A DNA stretch of 64,000 nucleotides from Natronobacterium haloterrestre (GTDB lineage Archaea; Halobacteriota; Halobacteria; Halobacteriales; Natrialbaceae). Shown here piece by piece: positions 6,530 through 21,008 of this stretch. Location: NCBI RefSeq assembly GCF_900112205.1, contig NZ_FOKW01000003.1:310001-374000 (forward strand). The letters are read 5' to 3'. Under the pieces are notes generated by a model. It had not been told where the DNA came from. It ran no database searches and saw only the letters and a list, made by a program, of their open reading frames with translations. Position 1 is the first letter of the stretch; each line of letters opens with the position of its first letter. The translations under genes were made by a program, and so were the position numbers.

Positions 6530-7885
6530 ATGCGCTGGCACGAGCGATCGAGGCGGCGGACGCTGACCCTTCTCGGGAGCTTCGGTACCGCCACCCTCGC
6601 TGGATGCACCCTCGGTGTCGAAGCCGATCCGTCGTTCGACCATCCGGGGCAAGTCCACGTGGACGAGCCGTTCGAAATGAGGATCGAGGACGTCCCCGAC
6701 GGGGACCCACTCGAACTCGTGCTCGAGGGAGGGGACGGGACCGGAGACCGCTTCGGCGCGGCAGTCGAACTCGAGGTGGACGGCGATCCCGTCGACGTGA
6801 ACGATGCAGCCGTCGTCGGGGGCGACGTACCGGCTGACCTCGAGGTCCCGACCACCGTGGCCCTGCTCCAGTTCGCCGACGTGTCGTGGTGGGAGTTTCA
6901 TTACGGCGGCCGAAGGCGACAGGGGTCCTTCGAGTGGCCCGACGAGCGAACGCTCCGGTTCGTCCTGCGAAACCCGGCAGGCGACGAACTCGGATCGACA
7001 TCGGTCCGGCGACAGTACCCCGCGGTCGAGAGCGTCGAGCCCGACGGCGATCTCGTGGGAACGGCGTTCGAACCCGAGCGAAACGGGGAGGCGTCGGGAA
7101 TCGTCGTCCTCCATGGCTCCGATGGCGAGCGGTGGGATCACGTCGCCGCGTTGCTGGCCCGACACGGGTACACTGCCCTCGCCCTCGAGTATTTCGACGG
7201 GCCTGGACTCCCCGACGATCTGGTCGAAATCCCGCTCGAGTACGTCGAGCGCGCGATCGACTGGGTGCTCGACCGTGACCGGGTGACCGGCGACCGCGCG
7301 GGGCTCTGGGGCGTCTCGAAGGGCGGCGAACTCGCCTTGCTCGCGGGGAGCCGGCTCGACTCCGTCGGCCCCGTCGTCTCGATCGCCGGCAGCGGCCTGG
7401 TCTGGGAGGGTGGAGCGTCGGCCGACGACCTCCCGGAGACCTCCTCGTGGTCGATCGGCGGCGACCCCGTTTCCTATCTCACGCTGAGCGACGTGGACTG
7501 GGAACCGGGACCGAACTCCCCGGTCGTCGAACTCTTCGCCGACGCGCTCGAGGTCGCCGACGGGGCGGCTATCGACGAGGCGACGATCCCCGTCGAAGAA
7601 ATCGAGGGGCCAGTTCTGCTGGTTTCGGGGGGCGACGACCGGCTGTGGCCCGCGGAACGCCTACAGAACGTCGCCGTCGCCCGGCTCGAGTCGGCCGACC
7701 ACCCGTCTCATCGGCACCTCGTCTACGAGGATGCCGGCCACGGGATCTTCCAGCCGTACTTTCCGCTCGAGGAAACCTACGGCCGTGGGTACGGCGGTAC
7801 GCTCGCGGCGAGTGCCGAGGCCGCACACGACCACTGGCCTGACGTACTGACCGCGTTTTCGGCCCTGGATGTGCCGGCCAGGTGA
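6530..7885 (+). CDS. Tat-exported lipoprotein hydrolase, acyl-CoA thioesterase/BAAT-like
   Basis: 451 residues. The N-terminus has arginines at 8-10, a hydrophobic stretch and a lipobox ending at Cys26, so it is probably Tat-exported and lipid-anchored on the outer face. Residues about 35-165 form a beta domain like the N-terminal domain of acyl-CoA thioesterase/BAAT proteins. The rest is an alpha/beta hydrolase with nucleophile elbow GVSKGG (Ser263), an acid in SGGDDRLWP and a late histidine in DAGHGIF. The family cleaves or transfers acyl thioesters, but an extracellular CoA thioesterase makes little physiological sense, so the true substrate may be another ester or amide. It stands alone, with the NOP5 gene downstream on the same strand. 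Confidence 0.8.
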   Translation: MRWHERSRRRTLTLLGSFGTATLAGCTLGVEADPSFDHPGQVHVDEPFEMRIEDVPDGDPLELVLEGGDGTGDRFGAAVELEVDGDPVDVNDAAVVGGDVPADLEVPTTVALLQFADVSWWEFHYGGRRRQGSFEWPDERTLRFVLRNPAGDELGSTSVRRQYPAVESVEPDGDLVGTAFEPERNGEASGIVVLHGSDGERWDHVAALLARHGYTALALEYFDGPGLPDDLVEIPLEYVERAIDWVLDRDRVTGDRAGLWGVSKGGELALLAGSRLDSVGPVVSIAGSGLVWEGGASADDLPETSSWSIGGDPVSYLTLSDVDWEPGPNSPVVELFADALEVADGAAIDEATIPVEEIEGPVLLVSGGDDRLWPAERLQNVAVARLESADHPSHRHLVYEDAGHGIFQPYFPLEETYGRGYGGTLAASAEAAHDHWPDVLTAFSALDVPAR

Positions 7886-16149: not shown

Positions 16150-18084
16150 ATGTCCCAGGAAAGCGAGTACGGCGCTGGACAGATCCAGGTCCTCGAAGGC
16201 CTGGAGGCCGTGCGAAAACGTCCGGCGATGTACATCGGCTCTACCGACTCTCGAGGGCTCCACCATCTGGTCTACGAAGTGGTGGACAACTCGATCGACG
16301 AGGCGTTGGCCGGCCACTGCGACGACATCACCGTCACCATCCACGAGGATCGGTCGGTGAGCGTCGCGGACGACGGCCGAGGCATTCCCGTCGACACGCA
16401 CGAGGAGTACGATCGCCCCGCGCTCGAGGTCATCTTGACGGTTCTCCACGCCGGCGGCAAGTTCGACAACAAGTCCTACCAGGTCTCCGGCGGGCTCCAC
16501 GGCGTCGGCGTCAGCGTCGTCAACGCCCTCTCGGAGCGACTCGAGGCCGAGGTCAAACGCGACGGCGGCGTCTACCGGCACGCGTTCGAGGCCGGCGAAC
16601 CCGTCGGCGACATGGAGCGAGTACGCGACATGGAGAGCGACGAGGAGACCGGCACGGAGATCCGGTTCTGGCCCGACGAGAGCATCTTCGAGGCCGACGA
16701 CTTCTCGTTCTCGACGCTGTCGAACCGGCTCCGTGAACTCGCCTTCTTGAACTCCGGCGTCCGCATCACGCTGCGCGACGAACGCGAGGAGGCCGCCGAC
16801 GCGGAGGGCATCGTCGAGGAAACGTACGAGTACGAGGGTGGCATCCGGGAGTTCGTCGAGTACCTGAACGAGACGCGCTCGGCGATGCACGAGGAGGTCA
16901 TCTACTTCGAGGACGAGGCCCAGAACATCCAGGTCGAGGTGGCGATGCAGGCCACCGAGGAGCTTCAGGGCTCGATCCACGCCTTCGCGAACAACATCAA
17001 CACCCGCGAGGGCGGCACCCACCTCACCGGGTTCAAAACCGCCCTGACGCGGACCGTCAACGACTACGCCAACGAGAACGACCTGCTCGGCGACCTAGAC
17101 GAGAACCTCAAGGGCGAGGACATCCGCGAAGGGTTGACCGCCGTCGTCTCGATCAAACACCCCGACCCGCAGTTCGAGGGCCAGACGAAGACGAAGCTCG
17201 GCAACTCGGAGGTCCGAGGGATCGTCGAGAGCGCCATGCACGAGGGCCTCGGCACCTACTTCGAGGAGAACCCCCACACCGCCGAGGCGATCATCAACAA
17301 GGCGGTCGAGGCCGCGAAGGCGCGCAAGGCCGCCCAGAAGGCCGAGGAACTGACTCGGCGGAAGTCGGCCCTCGAGTCGACATCGCTTCCCGGCAAGCTG
17401 GCCGACTGCCAGACGAAAGATCCCGGGGAGGCCGAACTGTTCATCGCGGAGGGTGACTCCGCCGGTGGGAGCGCAAAGCAGGCGCGAAACCCCGAGTTCC
17501 AGGCCGTCCTCCCCATCAAGGGGAAGATCCTGAACGTCGAGAAACACCGCCTCGACCGCATCCTCGAGAACGACGAGATTCGGAACATGATCACCGCGAT
17601 CGGCGCGGGGATCGGCGACGAGTTCGACCTGGAAGACGTCCGCTACGAGAAGATCATCATGGCGACCGACGCCGACGTCGACGGCGCCCACATCCGCACG
17701 CTCCTGTTGACGTTCTTCTACCGGCACATGCGGCCGCTGCTCGAGAACGGCTACGTCTACGCGACCCAGCCGCCGCTGTACCGCATCCGGTATCGCGGCG
17801 ACACCTACGACGCGATGACCGAACAGGAACGCGACGAGATCATCGAGGAGAAGTGCAACGGCAGTCCCTCGCAGGTCCAGCGGTTCAAAGGTCTCGGCGA
17901 GATGAACCCCCAGCAGCTCTGGGATACGACGATGGACCCGGAGAACCGCATCCTCAAACAGATCACGATCGAGGACGCGGCCGCCGCGGACAAGATGTTC
18001 TCCGTGCTGATGGGCGACGCCGTCGAGCCGCGCAAACAGTTCATCAAGGAGAACGCGCCGGAGGCCGAATGGATCGACATCTAA
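16150..18084 (+). CDS. gyrB: DNA gyrase subunit B
   Basis: ATPase subunit of type IIA topoisomerase, which with GyrA introduces negative supercoils. 644 residues, the short GyrB form without the long insert of proteobacteria. It shows the GHKL ATPase motifs [17 protein letters not shown] and [15 protein letters not shown], the transducer region, and the Toprim motifs EGDSAGG (from residue 434) and DADVDGAHI, ending in the [15 protein letters not shown] segment. gyrA follows 419 bases downstream on the same strand, separated by an unusual hairpin array. Confidence 0.98.
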
Positions 18085-18503
18085 CGAACTTTTACGCTGC
18101 GGGCGGTCGCTTCGCGACCGCACTCGGCAAAATCTCGAAAGAGCGCGAAGCGCTCTTTCGGACTGCGAGGGACCGGAGGTCCCTCGAGCAGTCGGCGCAA
18201 AGCGCCGACGACCTCGCGGGAGTGGTTCGAAAGGTGCCTCCGGCACCTTTCGTCATCACGAGACGCCTTCGGCGTCTCGAACGACTTCGCTCCCGCTTAG
18301 CGTCGATGAAAAGCACTCCTCCCTTCCCTCCGCGCAGCAAGCTGCGCTCGGCTCACGGCCTTCGACCGTTCGCCTTTCCGCGGTGCTTCGCACCGCGCTC
18401 TCCGGGTCGGTCGTCGGCCCGCTCGAGCGTCCGCAGAGCGGACGCTCTCGCGGATGCAATGCTCGCCAGCTAATTCGCACAAACTACGAAACCCAATGAA
18501 GAT
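18085..18503. repeat. Hairpin array between gyrB and gyrA
   Basis: The gap contains nine perfect inverted repeats, nearly all with 3-base loops. Stem arms are: 18103-18110/18114-18121 (loop TTC), 18136-18146/18150-18160 (GAA), 18166-18174/18178-18186 (GGA), 18191-18198/18202-18209 (AAA), 18228-18238/18242-18252 (TCC), 18259-18267/18271-18279 (TTC), 18332-18338/18341-18347 (AA), 18379-18386/18390-18397 (TTC) and 18425-18434/18438-18447 (AGA). An outer pair, GCGGGAG 18216-18222 with CTCCCGC 18290-18296, encloses two of them. The tract is open in several frames but shows no protein family. Confidence 0.85.
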
Positions 18504-21008
18504 ATGAGTTCAGACGTACCCGATCCCACAGACGTAGACGCTCGAGCGGTAGAGAACGTCCGCATCGAGGACGAAATGGAACAGAGCTACATCGACTACG
18601 CGATGTCCGTCATCGCGGGTCGTGCGCTCCCCCGCGTCGAGGACGGCTTAAAGCCCGTCCACCGCCGCATCCTGTACGCGATGCACGAGATGGGCGTCTC
18701 CTCGGGCAGCAGCCACCGCAAATCCTCCTCGATCGTCGGGGAGACGATGGGTGACTACCACCCCCACGGCGACAGCGCGATCTACGACACCCTGGTCCGG
18801 ATGGCCCAGGACTTCTCGATGCGCTACCCGCTGGTCGACGGCCAGGGGAACTTCGGCTCGATGGACGGCGACCCGGCCGCTGCCCAGCGGTACACGGAGG
18901 CCCGGATGTCGCCCATCTCGGAGGAACTGCTCGCGGACATCGAGAAAGACACCGTCGACTTCTCCGCGAACTACGACGACCGCCTGCAGGAGCCCGACGT
19001 CCTCCCCGCGGCGTTCCCGAACCTGCTGGTGAACGGCTCCTCGGGGATCGCCGTCGGGATGTCGACCAACATCCCGCCGCACAACTTAGGCGAGGTGATC
19101 GACGCCACCATCGAACTCATCGACAACCCCGACGCGACGGTCGAGGACCTGATGGAACACGTCAAGGGACCGGACTTCCCGACGGGGGCGAACATCGTCG
19201 GTCGCGACGCCATCTACTCCGCGTACAAGACCGGCCGCGGCCGCATCCGCGTCCGCGCCGAGTTCGAGGTCGAGGAGTGGAAGAACGGGCGCGAGCGGAT
19301 CGTCATCACCGAACTCCCCTTCCAGTCCAACAAGGCCCGACTGGTCGAGCGTATCGCCGAGGACGTCCACGAGGGCGAGATCGAAGGGATCTCCGACCTC
19401 CGCGACGAGTCCGACCGCGACGGCGTCCGCATCGTCGTCGAACTCAAACGCGGTGCGAACACCGAGGTCGTCAAGAACCGACTGCTCGAGAACCACCTCG
19501 AGCGTACCTTCGGCGTCATCAACCTCGCGCTGGTCGACGGCCAGCCTCAGGTACTCTCGCTGAAAGAAACGCTCGAGGAGTACGTCGCCCACCGCCGCGA
19601 GGTCGTCCGCCGGCGCAGCGAGTACGACCTCGCCGAGGCCGAGGATCGCGCCCACATCCTCGAGGGGCGGCTAAAGGCCGTCGAGAACGCCGAGGACGTG
19701 GTCGAACTGATTCGGGACAGCGAGACCCGGGACGACGCGAAGGAGGCCCTGCAGGACGCCTACGGCTTCTCGCAGGATCAGGCCGACCACATCGTCCGCA
19801 TGCAACTCGGCAGCCTCACGTCGATGGAGGCCGCCGAGATCGAAGACGAGTACGAGGAGGTCCAGGCCGAGATCGAGCGCCTGACGGAGATCCTCGAGAG
19901 CGAGCAGGAACTGCTCGAGGTCATCAAGGACGAACTCCGGGAGGTCAAAGACGAGTACGACGACGAACGCCGCACCTCGATCGTCGAGGACGAGGGGACC
20001 GTCACTCACGAGGACCTCATTCCCGAGGAGGAAGTCGTCGTCGTCATGACCGAAGACGACTACGTCAAGCGGATGCCGATCGAGACGTTCGACCCCCAGG
20101 GTCGAGGCGGTAAAGGGATCATCGGTGCGGACGTCAAGGACGAGGACCGCGTCGCCACCGTCTTCCGGGCGAACACCCACGACTACCTCCTGTGCTTTAC
20201 GAATCAGGGCCAGGTCTACCAGCTCAAGACCTACGAGATCCCCGAGATGGGTCGGACGGCACGCGGCAAGTCCGCGGTCAACATTCTCGATCTGGACGAC
20301 GGCGAGGACATCACCGCCATCGTCGACACCGACGCCCTCGAGGGCGACGAGTTCGTGACGATGGCTACCCGGAACGGCTACGTCAAGCGGACCGCCGGCG
20401 AGGAGTTCGACAACATCCGCTCGACCGGGATCATCGCGGCCGACTTGGAGGAAGGCGACGAACTCGTCGACGTCGAGGTCACCGACGGCTCGCAGGACCT
20501 CGTGATTGCGACCGAGGGCGGTATGACGATCCGGTTCGACGAGGACGACGTCCGCGCGATGGGCCGGAACGCCCGCGGCGTCAACGGGATCAAACTCCAG
20601 GACGACGACGCAGTCGCCGGGCTGGTCGCGGCCAACGGCGAGGACGGCGACGACCAGGCGCTGCTTACCGTCACCCGGAACGGGTACGGCAAGCGGACCC
20701 CGCTCGAGGAGTACAGTACCCAGTCCCGCTACGGGAAGGGGCTGATCGACATCAAGACCGAGGGCCGGAACGGCCCCGTGACCGCGATCAAGGCTGTCTC
20801 TCCCGACGACCATCTCGTGTTGATGAGCGAACGCGGCCAGATCGTCCGCACCCGCGTCGACGAGGTGTCGACTGTCGGACGGAACACGATGGGCGTAATC
20901 GTGATGGAGGTCGAAGACGAGGACGCCGTCGCAAGCGTCGACGTAATTCCTGCGGACACCGTCGAGGACGAAAGCGGTTCCGAAGCGGCCGACGGCGACG
21001 ACGAATAA
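18504..21008 (+). CDS. gyrA: DNA gyrase subunit A
   Basis: DNA cleavage and rejoining subunit of gyrase, 834 residues. The winged-helix domain has the catalytic tyrosine in RYTEARM (Tyr130). The quinolone-region stretch [12 protein letters not shown] keeps the canonical Ser. The coiled-coil gate lies near residues 440-490. The C-terminal beta-pinwheel has recurrent units ([41 protein letters not shown]). The tail is acidic. The ATG lies 26 bases after the hairpin array ends, with AT-rich sequence just before it. Confidence 0.98.

Follow-up and report, generated by a model that had tools for sequence, protein, structure and literature searches.

Small two-hairpin elements, likely mobile, nested in the gyrB-gyrA spacer of Natronobacterium haloterrestre

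The 419-bp spacer between gyrB and gyrA of Natronobacterium haloterrestre (positions 18085-18503 of the window, the whole 64,000-nucleotide stretch of DNA analyzed here) is filled by an array of hairpins. The array is likely to be a nest of small non-autonomous mobile elements that would move as single-stranded DNA and are not specially linked to gyrase. A base repeat, which carries hairpins too, lies directly behind gyrB; module B would have inserted into the base, modules C and A into B, and module D into the base. The spacer exists in nested states of presence and absence, the insertions have precise empty sites, and the elements are dispersed across the class, which supports the selfish palindrome mosaic that was one proposal of a sequence-only reading of this DNA.

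The hairpin array and its history in relatives

The spacer contains eight perfect inverted repeats with a loop of exactly 3 bases and arms of 8-11 bp, and a ninth hairpin with a 2-base loop (Table 1), in agreement with the nine perfect, mostly triloop repeats counted in the sequence-only reading. In 2000 dinucleotide shuffles, triloop hairpins with arms of at least 8 bp had a mean of 0.026 and a maximum of 2, compared with 8 in the spacer. Hairpin density was scanned in 1.24 Mb of the source genome (labeled G000), sampled by regions. The background is one such hairpin per 9.8 kb, and the gyrB-gyrA spacer is the densest 419-bp stretch in the scanned sequence. Hairpins also crowd together in a second array, at G000:C11:83866-84150, and in smaller clusters at C16:325953 and C20:268859. 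An Rfam search at a lax threshold returned sub-threshold chance matches only.

Table 1. Features of the gyrB-gyrA region in window coordinates. Labels beginning with L are spacers of relatives.
Feature	Position	Strand	Composition and occurrence
gyrB (upstream gene)	16150..18084	+	ORF; Pfam DNA_gyraseB, DNA_gyraseB_C, Toprim
Base element, 5' part	18085..18132	+	CGAACTTTTACGCTG, hairpin M1 (18103-18121), CTCGGCAAAA; directly behind the gyrB stop
Module B	18133..18300	-	CTAAG-hairpin-GAGGTC-hairpin-AGA; precise insert in L039, L065 and L079 relative to L012/L047
Module C	18163..18211	-	Interrupts B's linker; two hairpins, 18166-18186 and 18191-18209; shared by the window and L011, not in L039/L065
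Element A (module A)	18223..18284	-	TCGTT-hairpin-TGATGA-hairpin-AACCA; exact pattern match; empty site intact in L011, L039 and L065
Base element, middle	18301..18346	+	GATGAAAAGCACTCCTCCCTTCCCTCC, hairpin M2 (18332-18347); kept across relatives
Module D, 53 bp	18347..18402		Hairpin 18379-18397 and imperfect hairpin 18356-18370; in L010, L039 and the window, not in L011, L012 or L047
Base element, 3' part	18403..18470	+	CGGGTCGGTCGTCGGCCCGCTCG, hairpin M3 (18425-18447), then CGGATGCAATGCTCGCC; kept across relatives
gyrA (downstream gene)	18504..21008	+	ORF; Pfam DNA_topoisoIV, DNA_gyraseA_C
Triloop hairpins	18103-18121, 18136-18160, 18166-18186, 18191-18209		Arms 8-11 bp
Triloop hairpins (rest)	18228-18252, 18259-18279, 18379-18397, 18425-18447		Arms 8-11 bp
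Ninth hairpin	18332-18347		7-bp arms, 2-base loop
Outer pair	18216-18222/18290-18296		7 bp; two hairpins inside

Every module consists of two hairpins and is tiny, about 50-66 bp. Module B is 57 bp in relatives and is placed after CATCGAAG on the minus strand; in the window it is interrupted by modules C and A, and its hairpins are 18136-18160 and the outer 7-bp pair. The pair that the sequence-only reading saw enclosing two hairpins is thus one hairpin of module B, split by module A. Element A sits at CGAAG^C within the loop region of this hairpin, GCGGGAGCGAAGCTCCCGC. For modules C and D the edges can be placed up to 3 bp apart, and only one choice makes them fit the CGNNG target described below.

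The history of the spacer was read from 41 named Natrialbaceae loci in which the gyrB end was located. A homologous element stands between gyrB and gyrA in 10 of them, with conserved linkers and with hairpins that vary in number and sequence; the remaining 31 spacers are 0-91 bp long, contain no hairpin and lack the array. Alignment of the relatives' spacers resolves nested inserts with precise edges. The base element is alone in L012 and L047 and carries B in L079 and L028; L039 adds D to base and B, and L065 adds a degenerate A-type insert. Base, B and C are together in L011, and base, B, C, A and D in the window, the only one of the aligned spacers with element A inside the hairpin of B. 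These states show an order of events that, on the aligned sequences, would run from a short spacer through a dispersed base repeat to stepwise nested insertion of two-hairpin modules. In 10/97 genomes, which belong without exception to the same family, module B stands at a single fixed position within the base element, and this position documents only one insertion event for B.

Both gyrase genes lie on secondary replicons in Natrinema thermotolerans (L337, CP031304.1, a 987-kb plasmid) and Natronorubrum bangense (L059/L061), and in one such Natrialbaceae case the base element stands between gyrB and gyrA. N. bangense has a gyrA-like gene on the chromosome and also on the plasmid.

The base element is itself a dispersed repeat. 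Its pattern, CTTTTGCKCTGCG-N-CTCGGCAAAA, was found in 38/116 genomes across the class (control, 0), again with hypervariable triloop stems, and copies in this genome follow several genes besides gyrB. The slot of hairpin M3 covaries among relatives, with arms AGCGTCCGC/GCGGACGCT or GCGAGTTCGC/GCGAACTCGC. The loops of M1 are strand-biased (TNY in 46, the purine-any-A type, RNA, in 18), and its mismatches do not prefer G-T (6) over A-C (10). The element starts a few bases past the stop codon with the T stretch CTTTT. T stretches terminate transcription in Haloferax (PMC7237163), and because the stretch right after the stop codon resembles Haloferax transcript ends, the base element may act as a terminator. 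It also contains, at window positions 18310-18335, a pyrimidine tract that is conserved, CTCCTCCCTTCCCTCC; the other strand, GGAGGGAAGGGAGGAG, could form a G-quadruplex.

Element A: stems, distribution and target

Stem statistics were compiled from 161 distinct copies of element A, equal to 322 hairpins. Perfect hairpins account for 273/322, and 2930/2998 (98%) of the paired cells are Watson-Crick. The arms are 8-11 bases long, and the 322 hairpins contain 70 different 5' arms, all of which start with CG because the search pattern required it. Loops have three bases in 305/322 (95%), and 264 of these are of the type RNA (purine-any-A) or TNY. GNA is an ultra-stable triloop of DNA mini-hairpins. 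The same stem never occurs twice in one copy (0/161, compared with 11.0 expected from shuffling). Pairing-preserving change, the comparison that the sequence-only reading had proposed, is very strong. Scored on ungapped alignments, covariation reaches 0.359 for element A (shuffled, 0.148 ± 0.012; slid, ≤0.097) and 0.579 for the base hairpin M1 (shuffled, 0.125 ± 0.025; slid, ≤0.116). The linkers and geometry are conserved and the stems are freely replaced. The earlier statement that this is not a simple repeat family holds for the stems, which differ, and does not hold for the unpaired linkers, which are conserved repeats.

The loops of element A are strand-symmetric (TTC 65 and GAA 64; TCC 37 and GGA 33). 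Its mismatches are about equally G-T (23) and A-C (18), an argument that is weak for element A because copies run both ways relative to genes. The symmetric loops and the lack of a G-T preference are suggestive of a constraint at the DNA level. The TGATGA linker was considered as the C box of a C/D RNA and dropped, a D box not being seen in the consensus.

Element A is 54-66 bp long and has about 1-20 copies per genome. A first pattern search found it in 29/41 relatives, and an oriented pattern found it in 143/242 haloarchaeal genomes and 53/73 genera. The reversed-pattern control was 0 everywhere. Outside the haloarchaea, none of 124 genomes from other families in the phylum matched, nor did any viral contig in IMG/VR. 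Copies occur in both orientations, inside tnpB elements and elsewhere at many unrelated loci. A crude gene caller placed 56/64 copies between genes, a rough figure in which some "inside" calls are wrong, and the annotation of plasmid records likewise puts the copies mostly between genes.

Three copies lie in distinct gene settings. In plasmid phalar01 of archaeon DL31 (L340:801-879), element A stands at CGAAG^ within a gene with a pglZ domain and is in frame, which would add residues to the protein. A degenerate double-hairpin element breaks a tnpB reading frame at L162 (G000:C16:74600-74680). A copy in a strain used in the laboratory, on Haloferax mediterranei pHME505 (L339:1201-1241, record 7129-7169), occupies a tnpB-type hairpin site and is flanked by genes for a BCCT transporter and a solute-binding protein.

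Filled and empty pairs show that element A is inserted without target duplication. The site CCTCGGGG^CTTGACCCCGAGG (joined, CCTCGGGGCTTGACCCCGAGG) is a hairpin that IS1341-type tnpB elements (TnpB by Pfam) have close to their end; it is empty in 45/79 genomes, compared with filled copies in other elements of this type. The site CCGATGGCTGTG^CCACACAGCCGT (joined, CCGATGGCTGTGCCACACAGCCGT) is empty at G000:C26:87791 and filled at C26:90848, 3 kb away in the same genome. Over 64 distinct flank pairs, which are not 64 independent events because some are homologous to each other, the target is C(53/64) G(52/64) N N G(63/64) ^ C(58/64); in this genome as a whole, only 16% of G^C steps have CGNNG before them. 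A strict preference for hairpin loops was set aside in favor of CGNNG^C as the rule, loops (arms ≥7) being modestly enriched at 25% of sites compared with 9% of control sites. The empty IS-end hairpin has 23 matches in genome G050. Many of them form pairs with a spacing of about 340 bp, which suggests a short element in high copy number with this hairpin at its ends.

Proposed movement of the modules and competing explanations

Single-strand transposition of the IS200/IS605 type leaves no target duplication, a fixed 5' target, polarity and hairpin ends. Element A would insert 3' of CGNNG without duplicating its target, moving as single-stranded DNA folded into two hairpins, and the cutting and joining would probably be carried out in trans by an IS200/IS605-type TnpA (HUH) enzyme. 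Three TnpA genes are present in this genome. The hairpins upstream of them are unlike element A, and these loci were rejected as the autonomous partner, their ends not matching. Because the surroundings of the TnpA genes lack A-like ends, mobilization in trans is what we infer. The analysis found no transposase gene whose ends match element A, and a search for half-elements alone, as ends of longer IS, gave nothing above chance. The hairpins would act as DNA, a mutation in one arm being either copied to the other arm by template switching or lost by selection. More tentatively, and with somewhat less than an even chance of being right, these modules may form an element class recognized by shape. 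In this view the short linkers are conserved, while the stems of the two triloop DNA hairpins can have nearly any sequence and are rewritten fast yet stay perfect and mutually different; a single-strand DNA enzyme that reads the geometry and CGNNG would spread the modules class-wide.

The supercoiling-feedback and subunit-balancing roles raised in the sequence-only reading are contradicted by the 31 of 41 named Natrialbaceae spacers that lack the array and by the presence of the same elements at many unrelated loci. On these grounds a supercoiling sensor, with cruciforms between gyrB and gyrA feeding back on gyrase expression, is very improbable, even though the palindromes are perfect and their GNA/TNC triloops suit DNA folding (DNA fold -24.3 kcal/mol, z about -7). 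The array concerns mobile DNA and not gyrase, because one of its elements occurs across most haloarchaeal genera. Another reading takes the hairpins as RNA structures selected in the gyrB 3' region for termination, processing or stability, and multiplied by selection. The CTTTT start of the base element, its likeness to Haloferax transcript ends (PMC7237163) and the strand bias of the M1 loops speak for it, as do base element copies that, judged from sequence, also stand behind L10e-like, thermosome-like and regulator genes; but even in M1 G-T is not favored over A-C, and most relatives have a short spacer without the array. Element A also lies in both orientations, in tnpB elements, in a tnpB frame (the degenerate copy) and in the pglZ gene, with strand-symmetric loops, and no positive sign of an RNA processing role was found in the double-hairpin modules; the base hairpin may have such a role. 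Selection on RNA structure is an unlikely source of the array.

Instead of transposition, homologous recombination and gene conversion could have spread the modules, with dispersed base repeats and IS ends as the exchanging partners and the stem changes as conversion tracts. Such exchange would fit identical-stem copies, which often have shared repeated flanks (genomes G155, G041, G178 and G078), and module B, which is always at one base-element place. Element A, however, keeps the same ends although its flanks are unrelated (the hairpin of an IS, the base element, the pglZ gene and the hairpin of B), and most of its sites are alike; it is doubtful that recombination replaces transposition, at perhaps one chance in a few. 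Near-identical copies within one genome often have homologous flanks; because these flanks are often shared repeats, recombination may carry many copies and very likely contributes to the spread of what we take to be nested mobile elements.

Relation to known repeats and mobile elements

Element A has defined ends, a rule for its target and empty sites that match exactly, which makes the movement of transposase-free haloarchaeal repeats testable, for example in Haloferax mediterranei, and the same-stem exclusion together with near-perfect pairing constitutes a natural data set on palindrome evolution. A search of the open-access literature found no description of the element A family. The family could go unseen because elements with hypervariable stems tend to escape IS databases and repeat finders that work by sequence.

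MITEs share terminal repeats with a transposon and usually duplicate their target, whereas element A makes no duplication and no transposon with its ends was seen. The omega-RNA/right-end hairpin of IS1341-type tnpB elements is the host of the recurrent site GCCTCGGGG^CTTGACCCCGAGGC, and element A is a passenger in this hairpin, which stands without it in the 45 genomes counted above. The REP dimers, GTAG- and CGTC-tagged palindromes and REPINs likewise have paired hairpins and are mostly extragenic (PMC3733652, PMC3116915), and some REP dimers are inserted within palindromes, a parallel to element A (PMC3733652). Their stems are family-specific and often reach high copy in one species, in contrast to element A, with its 1-20 or so copies per genome over a whole class. 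The CGTC type has 8-9 bp stems, 4-5 base loops and a 3-bp tail, unlike the 8-11 bp arms and predominant triloops of element A. The double-hairpin elements of Allomyces mitochondria are two adjacent hairpins mobile as a unit (Paquin 2000, as cited in PMC2800124); their presence varies in close relatives, and they have no flanking duplication. They belong to fungal mitochondria, and the likeness to element A is one of form, with no sign of common descent.

Elements mobilized by IS200/IS605-type transposition, the features of which are summarized in PMC3119063, resemble element A in the short 5' target (CGNNG^), the lack of duplication and the hairpin ends. The closest haloarchaeal comparisons are the palindrome-associated transposable elements (PATEs) and SMR-A repeats described in Haloquadratum (Dyall-Smith 2011, PMC3119063). 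PATEs have near-terminal palindromes, and in the copies of element A that were examined 5 bases separate each end from the nearest hairpin; the filled and empty pairs of element A are PATE-like in lacking target duplication. Both are too short for a transposase, some PATEs being only 52 bp, and PATEs are haloarchaeal and linked to IS605-type elements (PMC3119063). PATEs have no terminal inverted repeats; the ends of element A, TCGTTCG/CGAACCA, are inverted repeats apart from one mismatch. PATE palindromes resemble IS605-type ones in sequence (PMC3119063); the stems of element A are replaced freely with only the linkers conserved, and its hairpins differ from those at the three TnpA genes of this genome. 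SMR-A repeats also lack target duplication, and their mobilization has been called "enigmatic" (PMC3119063). They insert in near-terminal palindromes of IS605-type elements, which for element A applies to the tnpB-associated subset of copies only. SMR-A repeats are about 110 bp long, >95% identical within a type and bounded by prominent terminal repeats (PMC3119063), whereas element A is about half as long, has 70 different stems and only near-inverted ends. Element A shares some defining features of PATEs and of SMR-A and departs from others.
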